This document shows positions 96 through 23,550 of a stretch of 26,797 nt of DNA, piece by piece. Positions within the stretch are counted from its first letter, which is position 1, and the number at the start of each line of letters is the position of its first letter. The notes beneath the pieces were generated by a model that saw only the letters and a list, made by a program, of their open reading frames with translations, was not told where the DNA came from and did not search any database. The position numbers and the translations under genes are program-made. The DNA comes from a virus, in IMG/VR virus record IMGVR_UViG_3300011114_000353, positions 1-26,797 of that record; one strand, 5' to 3'.

Positions 96-144
96 AAGCG
101 GTGCATACGGCTAAAGTAATTGCGGCTTACATTAAGGAAAAAAC

Positions 145-633
145 ATGAGCGTAAATCTTTCAGCATTTGGTGGTGTCGGCTGGCAATTCTTCGACAACAA
201 CGGCGTGCCGCTGGCCGGTGGTCTGATCTATACCTACGAAGCAGGCACCACGACACCACAAGCCACCTACACGACCAGCGCGGGAACGATAGCGCACACC
301 AATCCAATTGTGCTGAACTCCGCAGGCCGAGTGCCTGGTGGTGAGATTTGGTTGCTTCTTACCAACTACAAGTTTGTTTTGCAAACCTCGGCGGCGGTGT
401 TGATTGCAACTTACGACAACATCACCAGCGGATCAATTCCCGCGATTGCCAACTTTACTGGTGACGGCGCCACAGTTAGTTTTAACTTGGGCAACGCAAC
501 CAACGAGAACACCACAAACGTCTACATCAACGGCGTTTACCAGCAGAAAAACACCTATTCAATGAGTGGGTCAAATTTGGTGTTTTCAGAAGCGCCCCCG
601 AATACATCTTCAATTGAAGTCAGCTTTACTTAG
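145..633 (+). CDS. Tail fibre/tailspike-like protein with N-terminal virion-binding style domain
   Basis: 162 aa; ATG preceded by AAGGA about 8 bases upstream. Residues 9-70 carry a pattern I recognise from many phage fibre and tailspike N-termini: a WQFFDNNG segment, PLAGGLIYTYEAGTTTPQ, then NPIVLNSAGR and GEIWL. This is the kind of domain that attaches a fibre or spike to the virion. The remaining 90 residues have Asn/Thr-rich beta-strand character with an INGVYQQK segment, as in fibre repeats. The protein is far shorter than a full tailspike, and no catalytic or receptor-binding domain follows. It may be an adaptor or a short appendage fibre. It is followed 12 bases later by another small virion-like gene. 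Confidence 0.7.
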   Translation: MSVNLSAFGGVGWQFFDNNGVPLAGGLIYTYEAGTTTPQATYTTSAGTIAHTNPIVLNSAGRVPGGEIWLLLTNYKFVLQTSAAVLIATYDNITSGSIPAIANFTGDGATVSFNLGNATNENTTNVYINGVYQQKNTYSMSGSNLVFSEAPPNTSSIEVSFT

Positions 634-645
634 CAGGAGTCAGCC

Positions 646-981
646 ATGACCGTAACCGTAAAAGTTCTTGTCCCCGCCAAGACCGCAGAGGCCAGCCAAA
701 CAACGCAATATACAGCCACCAACGTCACCACAATCATTGACAAGTTCACGGCGACCAACTACAGCGCAACGGCTGCGACCTTGAGTGTGAATCTGGTCAC
801 TGCTGCTGACACGGCTGGCAATCAGAACTTGATTACCAAGACCAAGACACTTGCCGCCAGCGAGGTATATACTTTTCCTGAGATTGTCGGCCAGGTGCTG
901 ATGGCAAGCGGGTTTATCTCCACCATCGCAGGCACCGCAACGGCGATCAACATTCGCGCTTCAGGGCGGGAGGTTAGCTAG
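646..981 (+). CDS. Small beta-rich virion-associated protein, function unknown
   Basis: 111 aa; a good Shine-Dalgarno (AGGAG) precedes ATG 646. The sequence is Thr/Ala-rich and alternates polar and hydrophobic residues, as beta-sandwich virion proteins do. There is no signal peptide, membrane segment or catalytic motif. It sits between the fibre-like gene and the SET-cupin gene, and its TAG overlaps the GTG start of the next gene by one base, so the two are probably translationally coupled. I recognise the general type from other phage virion modules (often 'hypothetical protein' after a fibre gene) but cannot assign a named family. A structural role is inferred from context only. Confidence 0.6.
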   Translation: MTVTVKVLVPAKTAEASQTTQYTATNVTTIIDKFTATNYSATAATLSVNLVTAADTAGNQNLITKTKTLAASEVYTFPEIVGQVLMASGFISTIAGTATAINIRASGREVS

Positions 982-1829
982 TGGATTTGAATTCTACAAC
1001 TAGTGCCGCAGACCATAGGGATTTCAACTTGTTTTTAGTTGAGGCAAATCTTTTGCCTGAAACTGTCCGGCAAATATCGGAGTTCACCGCCGATGTTTTA
1101 TTTTTGGCTGACGCGCCTGTAAACGTGGCCGCGTCTGTTATTGAAGGCAAAGGGTTGTTCCTGACTGAGCCTAAACGTAAGGGCGAACTGATATGCCCCG
1201 CCCGAGTATCCGGTCGTCGGACGCAAGCTGGCAGGTATACAAACCATTCCGCCACGCCTAACGCAACCATGATCCTGCTCAACAACGGCGATCTGAATCT
1301 GGTCGCGGTTGCAGATATTAACGCCGACCAAGAAATCACAATTGACTACCGGCGCTCGTTGGCGTTATCCGATTTGACGTTTAACGACGGTCATTTGGAC
1401 ATGCGGAACAAGGTCAATCAGCTAGAACAAATGGTCGAGCAGTTACCGCAAGTTGACTGCCCTGTTCGGAACATCTTTGCGCCAAACATCTACGCTCGGG
1501 AAATGACCATTCCAACAGGCGTTGTTTTGACCGGCGCGGTGCATAAGACGTGTCATTTGAGCATATTGTCTAAGGGGCAAGTCAGGGTCGTGAGCGACGA
1601 AGGCGTTATTGAATTAACTGCGCCAGCTACATTGATTTCACAACCTGGGGCCAAACGGGCTATTTTTGCCCTTTCAGAAGCGGTTTGGACTACGATCCAC
1701 GCTACAACCGAAACTGACTTGGACAAACTGGTAACAGAACTTACCGAATCAACCGCTGCGGAATTATTGGGTGGCGTTAAAAATAAGCAACTATTGACGG
1801 TTGCTGCAAGTAATCACTTGGAAGGATAA
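981..1829 (+). CDS. SET-domain / cupin fusion protein
   Basis: 282 aa from GTG 981, which shares a base with the preceding TAG. Residues about 47-125 hold the core SET lysine-methyltransferase signatures in order: GKGLF (56-60), RYTNHS..PN (85-94) and EITIDY (118-123). These form the S-adenosylmethionine pocket and the pseudoknot of SET enzymes. The domain is compact, with no pre-SET cysteines and no post-SET zinc site. Residues about 164-255 form a cupin-like beta barrel of a type common in phages (AREMTIP, TGAVHK, SKGQ, PGAKRA, VWTTIH); H188, H192 and H240 could bind metal. SET proteins modify lysine in protein targets; the target here is unknown. The gene lies among virion genes, so host or virion proteins are both possible substrates. 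Domain calls are from motifs; activity is untested. Confidence 0.75.
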   Translation: MDLNSTTSAADHRDFNLFLVEANLLPETVRQISEFTADVLFLADAPVNVAASVIEGKGLFLTEPKRKGELICPARVSGRRTQAGRYTNHSATPNATMILLNNGDLNLVAVADINADQEITIDYRRSLALSDLTFNDGHLDMRNKVNQLEQMVEQLPQVDCPVRNIFAPNIYAREMTIPTGVVLTGAVHKTCHLSILSKGQVRVVSDEGVIELTAPATLISQPGAKRAIFALSEAVWTTIHATTETDLDKLVTELTESTAAELLGGVKNKQLLTVAASNHLEG

Positions 1830-11398: not shown

Positions 11399-12512
11399 GG
11401 TACGCCTCTATGAAGACTTGCGCGACTTGCGGGACGATGGCGTTGCCGTAGGCGCGCAGGCGTCCCACGCGGGCGGTAGCCCCATGAGCCAGCGGGAATG
11501 TGCCGGGTTCAACTGGCCGGGCTTTTCCGTCGCGGCAGGGGAGCCAATCGCAGTTAGACCAGAAACCGCATTGGCTAACGTGTCCGTTGGGTTGCCTTTG
11601 CGTTCCTGCCGCCCCGCCCCCGATGGGCCTTTGTAATCTCTCGTCGTCGTCGTCGGCCAACTCGCCAACAGCGCAAAGTCGTTCAAATCCTTGCTGTAGG
11701 GTTTGTTGTGTGGGTTGAGCGCCTTCTCGTCCCATCCGTTCTTGTTGTCCCGTGTTTGCGGTGTCGGCCAACTGGTCAACGTCACCACCTCGCGCAGATT
11801 CCCCGACACCGTGCGCCCCGGCCTGCCCGGATGGTTCAACCGTTTTTCGTAATCCATCGGCGGCAAGGTGTCCATTGTTTGCGGCGTCGGCCAACTCGCC
11901 AATGTCGGATCTGCGTTGGTCAGCAACGCTATCGTTTGCGTTTGCAAGTGTGTTGCTCGGTGCATTGGCCGACCCGTCGTGCGGGGTGTGCTGAACACTC
12001 CGTCCAACGCTTTGGGTGTCTGCCACAAACCAAAGTCTTTGTCTGATGTGCGGCGCCCCGACGCCGCCAGCCGGTATACCAACCGCCCCGCAGGCGTAAC
12101 CTTCTCCCTCCAAGTTAGCTTGAACAAGGTCAAGCCATCCGTGGTTAATCGCGCTTTCAACTTGCTCACCAAAGATAACGTCAGGTCGGCACTCGCGGAT
12201 GAGATTGAACCAGGTAGGCCAGAGGTGTCGATCATCAGCGGTGCCTTTTTGGGTGCCTGCGGCGCTGAAGGGCTGGCACGGGCAACTGCCCGTCCAAACA
12301 GGTCTGTCCTCGGGCCATCCGGCGAGGCGCAAGGCGTGACTCCAGCCGCCAAGTCCGGCAAAGAAATGGCACTGAATAAATCCGGTAAGGTCACTGGCTC
12401 TAACATCCTTGATGCTCCTTGTGTCAACTTCACCTTGGGGCAAATGCCCCGCGTCTATCAGATTGCGTAGCCACTGCGCGGCATACGGGTCAAACTCGTT
12501 GTAGTAGTTCAT
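11388..12512 (-). CDS. DNA cytosine-C5 methyltransferase (Dcm-like)
   Basis: 374 aa from ATG 12512 (GTG 12521 would add three residues). A phage-type N-terminal region ([18 protein letters not shown]) precedes the catalytic motifs: I FAGLGGW (51-57), [11 protein letters not shown] with nucleophile C79, VI GEQVES (115-120, EQV instead of the usual ENV) and VIII RQRLWF (157-162). Motif IX/X follows near the C-terminus ([20 protein letters not shown]). It transfers a methyl group from S-adenosylmethionine to C5 of cytosine, probably protecting phage DNA from restriction. The target-recognition region between VIII and IX is low in complexity and carries several LAD-starting repeats. Almost the whole gene also encodes another frame (see the nested CDS). 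No partner endonuclease is seen, so it is an orphan enzyme here. Confidence 0.85.
11408..12406 (-). CDS. Nested gene inside the methyltransferase: W-P-T-P-Q-T repeat protein
   Basis: 332 aa in a different frame of the same strand, entirely within the methyltransferase gene. ATG 12406 has a perfect AAGGAG eight bases upstream. The N-terminus ([40 protein letters not shown]) leads to a helical region (about 75-100) and [19 protein letters not shown]. Then come further W-P-T-P-type repeats at W172, W213 and W250, and a C-terminus [19 protein letters not shown]...[10 protein letters not shown] recall this arrangement from many phage and bacterial 'hypothetical' proteins, so the frame looks like a true protein rather than chance. 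TAG 11408 is nine bases upstream of the helicase start codon. Function unknown; it might be a methyltransferase partner. Overlap and SD are seen directly; family recognition is from memory. Confidence 0.7.
12415..12420 (-). promoter_or_regulatory. Shine-Dalgarno of the nested gene
   Basis: On the minus strand AAGGAG is followed by 8 bases and ATG (12404-12406). It lies inside the methyltransferase coding sequence. It is as good as or better than most ribosome sites in this operon, which decides the nested start over the GTG at 12433. Confidence 0.7.
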
Positions 12513-12765
12513 CCACCTCACCTTTCGATCTAATCACAATGTAATTCATCCCCATGCGGCGCATCTCGGCAGCGAACACCTTCTGCCACGGTGACAAGCG
12601 CCCCTTTACAGTCTTGAGTTCCACAAACCACACCACGCCCCCTGGCAGCAGCACGATGCGGTCGGCCACACCAACACGCCCCGGTGACACCCACTTGTAG
12701 GCCACGCCACCATGCTCGATGGTGCGGCGCACAAGGTAGCGTTCAATGTCACGTTCTAGTATCAT
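12490..12765 (-). CDS. VRR-NUC domain nuclease
   Basis: 91 aa, nearly all one domain of the PD-(D/E)XK fold. The signatures are VSPGRVGVADRIVLLPGG (D35), VWFVELKT (E49, K51) and LSPWQ (Q61), which together build the metal site of VRR-NUC enzymes. The N-terminal E4 and E8 helix matches the family. Stand-alone VRR-NUC proteins are common in phages and resemble Holliday-junction or flap nucleases. It is the promoter-proximal gene of the leftward operon and overlaps the methyltransferase start by 23 bases. No clear Shine-Dalgarno precedes ATG 12765, so its mRNA may have a weak or short leader. Confidence 0.85.
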   Translation of the reverse strand: MILERDIERYLVRRTIEHGGVAYKWVSPGRVGVADRIVLLPGGVVWFVELKTVKGRLSPWQKVFAAEMRRMGMNYIVIRSKGEVDELLQRV

Positions 12766-19180: not shown

Positions 19181-19238
19181 ACAAGTCGAACAGGATAGCG
19201 AGCAGGATTAGAATCAGGAACACGCCGAGCGCGATCAT
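19179..19238 (-). CDS. 19-aa membrane peptide
   Basis: ATG 19238 overlaps the stop of the clamp-like gene (ATGA) and the frame ends at TAA in the terminator's T-run. The product is almost entirely hydrophobic (Ile/Leu/Val/Ala) and ends in Asp-Leu, enough for one membrane helix. Its size is at the limit of what can be called, but the same ATGA junction is used throughout these operons and two other tiny membrane peptides are present. Function unknown. Confidence 0.4.
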   Translation of the reverse strand: MIALGVFLILILLAILFDL

Positions 19239-19819
19239 TCGCGCGCCCAGGCGCAATCAGCCACGGCTAAGGCGCTCGAACGCATCGGCATGACCACGCC
19301 CACCACGTCCGCAGTCAGATAGACCAGGCCGCTACCGTCGCCGCCAGGGAGCAGGTCGAACAGCCCCTTTTCGGAACCTAAGTCCTCCGCCGCCCGCTTG
19401 AACCGCACCAGCAAGTCAGGATCGAAGAACGACGGCTTGCCGTCCGGCGCCGCCGGTATCACTTTGCGATACATGGGGAACGTGCCCGCCACCGGCACGA
19501 ACACCAGCGCCTCGCCGGTGGCGCGCGTCAGCCGGCACTCACGCTCGCCGGGTATCAGGATAATCGGCAGGTTTTTGTTGCCCTTCCAGGCCAGCGCCGC
19601 CTTGACCACGTCCACCGGGATAATGCCCGTCCAGGTGTCCGTGTCCGGCTCGCCCGCCGCCCGCACCACCAGCAGCGCGTGGCCATCTGTGGCAACCAGG
19701 CGCACGCCCGCCGGCGACGCCTCGACCAGTACGCCGTGCAGCGTGAGCCGCTGGTCTTTCGGATCTGTGGCCGCGAACCGCGCCGCCGCCTTCAATTTGT
19801 TGCGGTCGAGCAGGATCAT
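19235..19819 (-). CDS. Short sliding-clamp-like (DNA polymerase III beta-like) protein
   Basis: 194 aa. It carries the hallmarks of beta clamps: LTLHGVLVEASPAGVRLVATDGHALL (25-50), matching the 'gvlle...latDGhrLa' strand pair; TFPMYRKVIP (113-122), matching 'FPdyrrviP'; and VVMPMR (175-180), matching the conserved C-terminal 'mPmr'. Cellular clamps have about 370 residues in three domains. This one is half that length, so it may build a ring from more subunits or be a clamp mimic. Clamps hold polymerases on DNA; no clamp loader is seen in the window. It might recruit the host loader or interfere with the host clamp. ATGA junctions on both sides. Similarity is by eye. Confidence 0.6.
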   Translation of the reverse strand: MILLDRNKLKAAARFAATDPKDQRLTLHGVLVEASPAGVRLVATDGHALLVVRAAGEPDTDTWTGIIPVDVVKAALAWKGNKNLPIILIPGERECRLTRATGEALVFVPVAGTFPMYRKVIPAAPDGKPSFFDPDLLVRFKRAAEDLGSEKGLFDLLPGGDGSGLVYLTADVVGVVMPMRSSALAVADCAWARE

Positions 19820-22571: not shown

Positions 22572-23066
22572 ATGTTCCAGTCACTCCCACTGGCTATACG
22601 ACCTAGAGTTCAGGCGACAGAGGCGCGTCTGGATGCTATATACAAAGCTGCATCTATGGGGTTAAAAGGGGATTCACTAGCACTGGCGTCGGGGATGCTG
22701 CCTTTAGAGTACCGGCAATTGTGCCAATTTGACCCATTGGCCGAACTAGCGGCGCAGAAGGGCAAGGCGGACAACGAACTGCGCGCAGCGCAACGTCTGA
22801 ACGAGGCGTCAGATCAGGGCGATGCCAAGGCCAGCCTGGCAATACTTACCCACGTTCACGGTTGGCAACAAACATCCAACGTCAACATAAATGTCGAGCA
22901 GCGGATTAGTATCATATCCGCGCTAGAAGAAGCCAAGTCAAGGGTGATCGAAGGCAGTGCTACAATAGACGAAGCCCCCGAACGCATCAACGGTCGAGGG
23001 CTTCTTACCAATAACGATGAGGACACATCGCATGGCTACCAACATTCTAACGCAAGCGCGGCTTAA
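22572..23066 (+). CDS. Terminase small subunit
   Basis: 164 aa. Residues 14-100 match the phage small-terminase pattern I recognise: EARLDAIYKAASMGLKGDSLALASGM, then LPLEYRQLC, DPLAELAAQKGKADNE and ILTHVHGWQ. The first part forms the DNA-binding helix-turn-helix (about 20-52). The helical middle would oligomerise into the ring that recognises packaging DNA and stimulates the large subunit. There is no Shine-Dalgarno before ATG 22572, and a strong promoter ends 6 bases upstream, so translation is probably leaderless; the alternative ATG at 22656 would cut into the HTH. The last 35 bases overlap the HNH gene. The region after residue 128 is variable and acidic. Confidence 0.75.
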   Translation: MFQSLPLAIRPRVQATEARLDAIYKAASMGLKGDSLALASGMLPLEYRQLCQFDPLAELAAQKGKADNELRAAQRLNEASDQGDAKASLAILTHVHGWQQTSNVNINVEQRISIISALEEAKSRVIEGSATIDEAPERINGRGLLTNNDEDTSHGYQHSNASAA

Positions 23067-23550
23067 AGAACTCTTGCGCTACGACCCGGCAACGGGGCTA
23101 TTTACGTGGTTGCAAAACAAAGGCACACAGCGCAAAAACGCTATTGCCGGTTCGCGGCACACTACCGGTTACGTCAATATTAGTATTGACAGCAAACTAC
23201 ACCGAGCGCATCGGCTTGTGTGGCTGTATGAGTATGGTTGTTTTCCCGACGGAGAGATTGACCACATAAACCGCGTTCCGTTTGACAACCGACGCGTTAA
23301 TATACAAGTAGCGACGCGCAACCAAAACACGCAGAATACCGGCTTACAATGTAATAACGTCTCGGGCCACCGAGGTATTGGCTGGAATAAACAGCAACAA
23401 AAATGGCGGGCACGAATAGGTATTGACGGAAAAAACACCTATTTAGGGCGGTTTGATACGTTTGAAGATGCTGTGTCTGCGTATACTGACGCTGCAAGTA
23501 TTTACCACGCATATAGGCTGCAATGCAAAAGCCAATCTACTCCACAATAG
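23032..23550 (+). CDS. HNH endonuclease with AP2 DNA-binding domain (homing type)
   Basis: 172 aa from ATG 23032, with GAGGA eight bases upstream. An in-frame ATG at 23017 adds five residues but its start lies on that ribosome site. Residues about 57-103 are an HNH core: HRAHRLVWL, GEIDHIN (D77, H78, N80), DNRRVN and ATRNQNTQN. Residues about 112-160 form an AP2-like domain (GHRGIGWNKQQQKWRARI, YLGRFDTFEDAVSAY). This HNH_3-AP2 pairing is typical of phage homing nucleases that cut alleles lacking the gene. It sits between the terminase genes, overlapping the small subunit by 35 bases and the large subunit by 28 bases. It could instead have been adopted for packaging, as HNH proteins near terminases sometimes are. 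Confidence 0.85.
   Translation: MATNILTQARLKELLRYDPATGLFTWLQNKGTQRKNAIAGSRHTTGYVNISIDSKLHRAHRLVWLYEYGCFPDGEIDHINRVPFDNRRVNIQVATRNQNTQNTGLQCNNVSGHRGIGWNKQQQKWRARIGIDGKNTYLGRFDTFEDAVSAYTDAASIYHAYRLQCKSQSTPQ

Follow-up and report, generated by a model that had tools for sequence, protein, structure and literature searches.

Can one stretch of viral DNA encode two proteins over 999 common bases of the same strand, and what would the inner of the two do? This question is raised by IMG/VR virus record IMGVR_UViG_3300011114_000353, of which positions 1 to 26,797 were analysed (the whole stretch of 26,797 nucleotides is called the window hereafter) and in which the gene of a C5-cytosine DNA methyltransferase contains a second long frame. 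An original prediction had pointed out both frames from the letters of the DNA; they are present as it described, on the minus strand, which it had not named. The nested gene lies entirely within the outer gene in the +1 frame, all 999 bases being common to both, and each nested codon consists of positions 2 and 3 of a methyltransferase codon followed by position 1 of the next. The comparative data are decisive that the nested frame is a real gene under protein-level selection. Its product is proposed to be the beta subunit of a two-chain C5-methyltransferase, contributing the motif IX that the outer chain (alpha) lacks, a reading to which sequence comparison lends a probability of about 0.82.

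The window alone is merely suggestive with regard to selection. Shuffling of synonymous codons yielded a mean of 5.0 stops in the +1 frame versus a single observed stop, which ends the gene (P about 0.007), and an open +1 frame is only moderately unlikely to arise by chance there. Among 81 diverse viral relatives, the +1 frame featured 100 stops, mostly terminal ones, versus 326 expected, and the +2 frame 1068 versus 941 expected. Silent changes creating or removing a nested stop were seen 1595 times before the overlap (1450 expected), whereas within it they numbered 115 versus 1075 expected in the catalytic zone and 0 versus 41 in the variable zone. Divergence at fourfold sites was determined for identical amino acids in pairs of 55-70% protein identity, the methyltransferase wobble base being the second position of the nested codon. 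It reached 0.69 ahead of the nested start and 0.67 beyond the nested stop; within the overlap, the values were 0.48 for the catalytic motifs, 0.46 for the variable region and 0.22 for the last nested segment. A hidden Markov model (HMM) of the nested frame, trained on viral genes, gave 344 bits on held-out bacterial genes versus 133 bits for synonymous shuffles. The +2 control frame showed a smaller rise (257 versus 133 bits), which is due to shared ancestry. A pairwise test of nested-frame similarity was dropped as weak because the +2 frame rises in it as well for the same reason, and the held-out HMMs, the stop-creation test and the wobble test described below took its place. Thus none of the outcomes that the original prediction had named as refuting it came up: the nested protein has plenty of homologues, relatives avoid stops in its frame, and the methyltransferase frame does not explain the substitutions.

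The start region of the nested gene points in the same direction. The AAGGAG that had been noticed at 8-base spacing ahead of the nested ATG is exact in the sequence. In the relatives, GAT accounts for 69% of Asp codons at the site of the nested ATG versus 34% elsewhere, and where the Shine-Dalgarno site falls, AGG makes up 25% of the Arg codons versus 7% elsewhere. Shine-Dalgarno-like cores are enriched as well, preceding 50% of the ATGs in the start region versus 25% of other +1 ATGs.

The overlap was followed in a set of 245 loci of the window type, which included viral contigs fetched by the nested protein (80) or by the methyltransferase alone (76) as well as 80 loci from bacterial genomes and seven from GenBank phages. 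Both frames were found in the identical +1 register at all 245 loci, including 76 of 76 that were fetched by the methyltransferase query alone. Searching for DNA encoding LNPxxWVEWLMG retrieved many more viral loci, and in 77 of 80 of these the frame one base earlier was a C5-methyltransferase according to HMM matches. The first suspicion that LNPxWVEWLMG proteins are products of stand-alone genes was rejected on these counts, and the question of the original prediction, whether nested homologues always overlap a methyltransferase, can be answered with almost always. Examples from Paenibacillus, Bacteroides and cyanophages were read and matched to profiles and stand outside the selection tests. 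Altogether, the nested arrangement proves to be spread widely among phages and prophages, and its breadth and age would surprise a specialist.

The records themselves reflect this only in part. As a rule, annotation overlooks nested proteins of this type or calls them 'hypothetical' or 'DNA methyltransferase', and in some records only one of the two genes is given. In the GenBank phages Cy-LDV1 (L161), PMG1 (L163), phiKX1 (L159) and Kc259 (L162), one of the overlapping proteins is unannotated or truncated, the public annotation of PMG1 giving the nested gene only. A few loci (L003, L016, L030, L194, L195, L339) have an interrupted outer frame next to an intact nested one, and at L017 the nested frame is broken; both may reflect decay, assembly error or something more interesting. 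At three further loci (L325, L371, L376) the frames swap at a run of G, joining the N-terminal half of alpha to the C-terminal half of beta, which could be a sequencing or assembly indel, decay or a phase-variable tract.

Two unbiased searches for the wider family made use of the methyltransferase only. One searched for the pattern EPxVGRVA[HN]G[IV]P with no wobble base fixed, and the other started from a different methyltransferase, its hits being confirmed by tblastn. The pattern search yielded 80 loci with GC contents of 0.32-0.71, all of the form GAA CCC nnn GTG GGT (C/A)GA GTG GCT (C/A)AT GGG (A/G)T(A/T) CCC, with CGC as the Arg codon in 2 of the 80. The second search gave 38 distinct motif-bearing loci with the same wobble bases throughout, one Pro codon apart. 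At the [IV] codon of these loci the wobble base is always T or A, and these two are precisely the bases with which the nested frame encodes Phe or Tyr. Among the loci of the second set, the outer protein varies between H, N, D and Y, changes that are silent in the nested frame, where beta stays LM. Even an outer protein without this motif altogether is accompanied by a nested frame reading MG[FYLV]PxxW/H, and distant relatives retain the nested LNPxWVEWLMG[FY]P where the outer protein differs. A fixed nested motif over free outer residues is a pattern that non-coding constraint does not predict.

What the nested protein might do is suggested by a gap in its partner. The outer protein had been taken for a methyltransferase with all core motifs; motifs I, IV, VI, VIII and X are present indeed, but motif IX is not found in the outer frame, its position being filled by other sequence. 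Among 389 distinct enzymes, motif IX (LNPxxxxWLMGxP) occurs in the +1 frame only in 363, in the outer frame only in a single one (L347) and in both frames in none, and an MGxP-type motif IX is absent from the outer frame in 388 of the 389. The strict pattern is missed by 25 of the 389 enzymes, and all six that were inspected keep the motif, the MGxP core differing by one change. The motif IX segment is the best-conserved stretch of beta. Between motifs VIII and X, alpha is poorly conserved with LADT repeats, the same DNA encoding the WPTP repeat region in beta.

The identity of the element as motif IX follows from the exceptional L347, where a single-frame C5-methyltransferase (108-1160, minus strand) features the in-frame motif IX LNPDWVEWLMGYP followed by GNSVVP. 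The element aligns without gaps to positions 270-318 of M.HhaI, i.e., to motifs IX and X ('KTRKLHPRECARVMGYPDSYKVHPSTSQAYKQFGNSVV'), and the nested element is therefore read as motif IX. A canonical NgoMIV-type enzyme, used as a control, has the in-frame motif IX RMTARIQGFPDDW and 10 stops in the +1 frame. L347 is of interest in its own right: motif IX has moved to the catalytic frame, and a +1 frame, shortened but still containing PTP repeats, persists, offering a natural experiment in the separation of overlapping genes.

Taken together, one DNA stretch would encode both chains of a heterodimeric C5-cytosine DNA methyltransferase, translated from one mRNA by separate initiation. The outer frame would give alpha with the S-adenosylmethionine-binding and catalytic motifs I-VIII plus motif X. 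Ribosomes initiating at the internal AAGGAG and ATG would produce beta from the +1 frame, with motif IX (LNPxxxRWLMGxPxxW) placed on a predicted helix-hairpin core linked by WPTP repeats. By docking on alpha, beta would complete the motif set and help to form or place the small DNA-recognition domain, and methylation should need both chains with neither being active alone. The biological role may be the marking of phage DNA, probably against host restriction. Of the roles that the original prediction had offered for the nested product, namely partner, inhibitor or recognition subunit of the methyltransferase, the evidence favours the partner, a beta chain carrying motif IX. A bolder version, to which we would give appreciably less than an even chance, sees in beta the whole recognition (small-domain) subunit, with the sequence specificity of a very large and old group of phage and prophage C5-methyltransferases written in an overprinted frame.

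Several observations weigh against the two-chain enzyme. AlphaFold2 models of beta alone were poor, with predicted local distance difference test (pLDDT) values of 55 and 64; the helix-hairpin core (residues 70-117 of the beta encoded in the window, block means of about 70-90) and the motif IX helix were the confident parts, and the rest stayed mostly below 65. Foldseek and VIA-align searches with these models returned no convincing fold and listed no methyltransferase small domain, a result that excludes nothing at pLDDT 55-64. Low confidence would not be surprising for a chain whose folding takes place on its partner, but it is not evidence by itself. Moreover, the match of the L347 motif IX to M.HhaI is weak alone (second domain 6 bits) and rests on the ungapped register and the spacing to motif X. 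Shine-Dalgarno-like sites, although enriched, are present ahead of only about half of the candidate nested ATGs. Finally, the likeness to the two-chain enzyme M.EcoHK31I, which is taken up at the end, is one of motif layout.

Other explanations have been weighed against the same data. A separate product that merely shares its DNA with the methyltransferase (an inhibitor or regulator of that enzyme, for example, or else an anti-restriction or DNA-mimic protein) would suit the own start signals of the nested gene and a conserved N-terminal core far from motif IX, and PHROG assigns the nested protein no tested function. Still, the nested protein is hardly ever found apart from the methyltransferase, the segment conserved best in it is the sole motif missing from the methyltransferase, and in L347 this segment moved into the methyltransferase chain, which makes an independent product unlikely. 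Less probable again is translational frameshifting from alpha into the nested frame and back, giving a single chain with motifs I-X. The location of motif IX in the +1 frame and of motif X in frame 0 invites this idea, as do L347 and L337 with motif IX fused in frame to motif X, and the three loci crossing frames at a G-tract. Nevertheless, every protein would require two opposite shifts, the nested frame is constrained over more than 100 upstream codons that a shifted product would not use, it has its own Shine-Dalgarno sequence and ATG, and the rare crossings may be assembly indels.

Slightly more remote still is an untranslated nested frame kept open and conserved by an RNA or DNA element or by codon bias. 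The +2 and antisense frames likewise exceed shuffles, the DNA being conserved, but stop avoidance begins exactly at the nested start, the [IV] wobble is restricted to changes giving F or Y while positions free in the nested code vary freely, and the wobble pattern persists over the whole range of GC contents. An equally small chance is left to the outer frame being a decayed methyltransferase with only the nested protein of importance, for which the few loci with a broken outer and an intact nested frame speak. The two-chain methyltransferase is the preferred reading, and the parts of its locus are listed in Table 1.

Table 1. Positions in the window of the two overlapping genes and of the elements recognised in them
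Feature	Position	Strand	Remarks
Outer gene, C5-cytosine methyltransferase, proposed alpha subunit	12512-11388	minus	ATG at 12512, 374 amino acids
Nested gene, proposed beta subunit	12406-11408	minus	+1 frame, ATG at 12406, 332 amino acids
Shine-Dalgarno-like AAGGAG	12415..12420	minus	8 bases 5' of the nested ATG; context ACAAGGAGCATCAAGGATG
Alpha motif I, FFAGLGGW	12342..12365	minus	M.HhaI alignment and sequence
Alpha motif IV with catalytic PCQ	12255..12290	minus	M.HhaI alignment and sequence
Alpha motif VI, FGEQV	12159..12173	minus	M.HhaI alignment and sequence
Alpha motif VIII	12018..12047	minus	M.HhaI alignment and sequence
Alpha motif X	11427..11462	minus	Sequence
Beta core, predicted helix and hairpin	12059..12193	minus	AlphaFold2; L83, G91 and W99 invariant or near-invariant
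Beta WPTP repeat SWPTPQTMD	11870..11896	minus	Relatives keep LAGWPTPxxxD
Beta WPTP repeat SWPTPQTRD	11747..11773	minus	Alpha reading of the same DNA is QLADTANTG
Beta WPTP-like repeat SWPTTTTRD	11636..11662	minus	Sequence
Beta motif IX	11462..11515	minus	In-frame counterpart in L347 aligns to M.HhaI; lowest silent divergence of the overlap

An alternative GTG start of the outer gene is possible at 12521, and the nested frame stays open upstream of its ATG as far as a GTG at 12433. The outer protein matches PF00145 at 5.8e-16, covering only positions 65-187 of the 324 of the profile, and phrog_363 at 1.4e-81, and it can be aligned to M.HhaI over motifs I-VIII only. The nested protein matches phrog_1008 at 3.6e-26 (residues 20-324 on profile positions 24-287 of 329) and phrog_31772 at 1.6e-17; both families carry the label 'DNA methyltransferase', which states no function. 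It matched no family in Pfam or NCBIfam, and nothing of note was found by searching PDB sequences with a beta profile.

The pair is flanked by a VRR-NUC-like gene and a gene for an SNF2-type helicase, and many viral relatives have the same neighbours. None of the neighbours examined, including those annotated in one window-type plasmid example, was recognised as a restriction endonuclease gene. Elsewhere, the window encodes a SET-domain protein of the phage (981-1829, plus strand; PF00856, 1.1e-8) and a 194-amino-acid protein that resembles the bacterial sliding clamp weakly, at a score below the cut-off (19235-19819, minus strand; PF02767, 6.6e-4). An HNH and AP2 homing-type endonuclease (23017-23550, plus strand) is located immediately ahead of the large terminase gene.

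If beta is the recognition subunit, few overlapping gene pairs on one strand in prokaryotes would be as widespread as these two genes, which would span phages from Pseudomonadota to Bacteroidota, Bacillota, Planctomycetota and Cyanobacteria, with rare lineages having returned motif IX to one chain. If beta is obligate, synonymous recoding of cloned phage C5-methyltransferases would silently inactivate them, and work on their recognition sites might be directed at the wrong chain. Besides, this clean, ancient and very widely sampled overlap lends itself to measurements of how such gene pairs originate, are maintained and come apart.

With regard to known systems, the outer chain shares motifs I-VIII and X with monomeric C5-methyltransferases of the PF00145, M.HhaI and M.NgoMIV type, which, unlike the window enzyme, carry motif IX together with motifs I-VIII on a single chain. 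In the literature on overlapping phage methyltransferase genes, no description of the nested family was found and none that recognises a motif IX subunit. The 'Mte8-like protein' of Escherichia K1 phages, a label that likewise names no function, is of the nested type; in the Kagunavirus K1ind2, open reading frame ORF28 is located inside ORF29 (C-specific methylase). Phage epsilon15 carries the pair as well. Natural C5-methyltransferases that place motif IX on a second chain are represented by M.AquI, whose small chain holds motifs IX and X plus half of the variable region; here, unlike in M.AquI, the large chain retains motif X and one gene lies inside the other. The gene of the small chain of M.EcoHK31I is reportedly nested in that of the large chain in another frame. 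M.EcoHK31I is a two-polypeptide C5-methyltransferase recognising YGGCCR (Lee, Kam and Shaw, 1995, as described in PMC3404938), with motifs I-VIII, motif X and the predicted target recognition domain on the large chain and motif IX only on the small chain (PMC3404938). It belongs to a type II restriction-modification system, in which it differs from the window pair with no restriction endonuclease gene recognised among the neighbours examined; the distribution of motifs I-VIII and X on the large and of motif IX on the small chain is alike in both. With M.EcoHK31I as its precedent, this rare kind of system has been known since 1995, and this instance is new.
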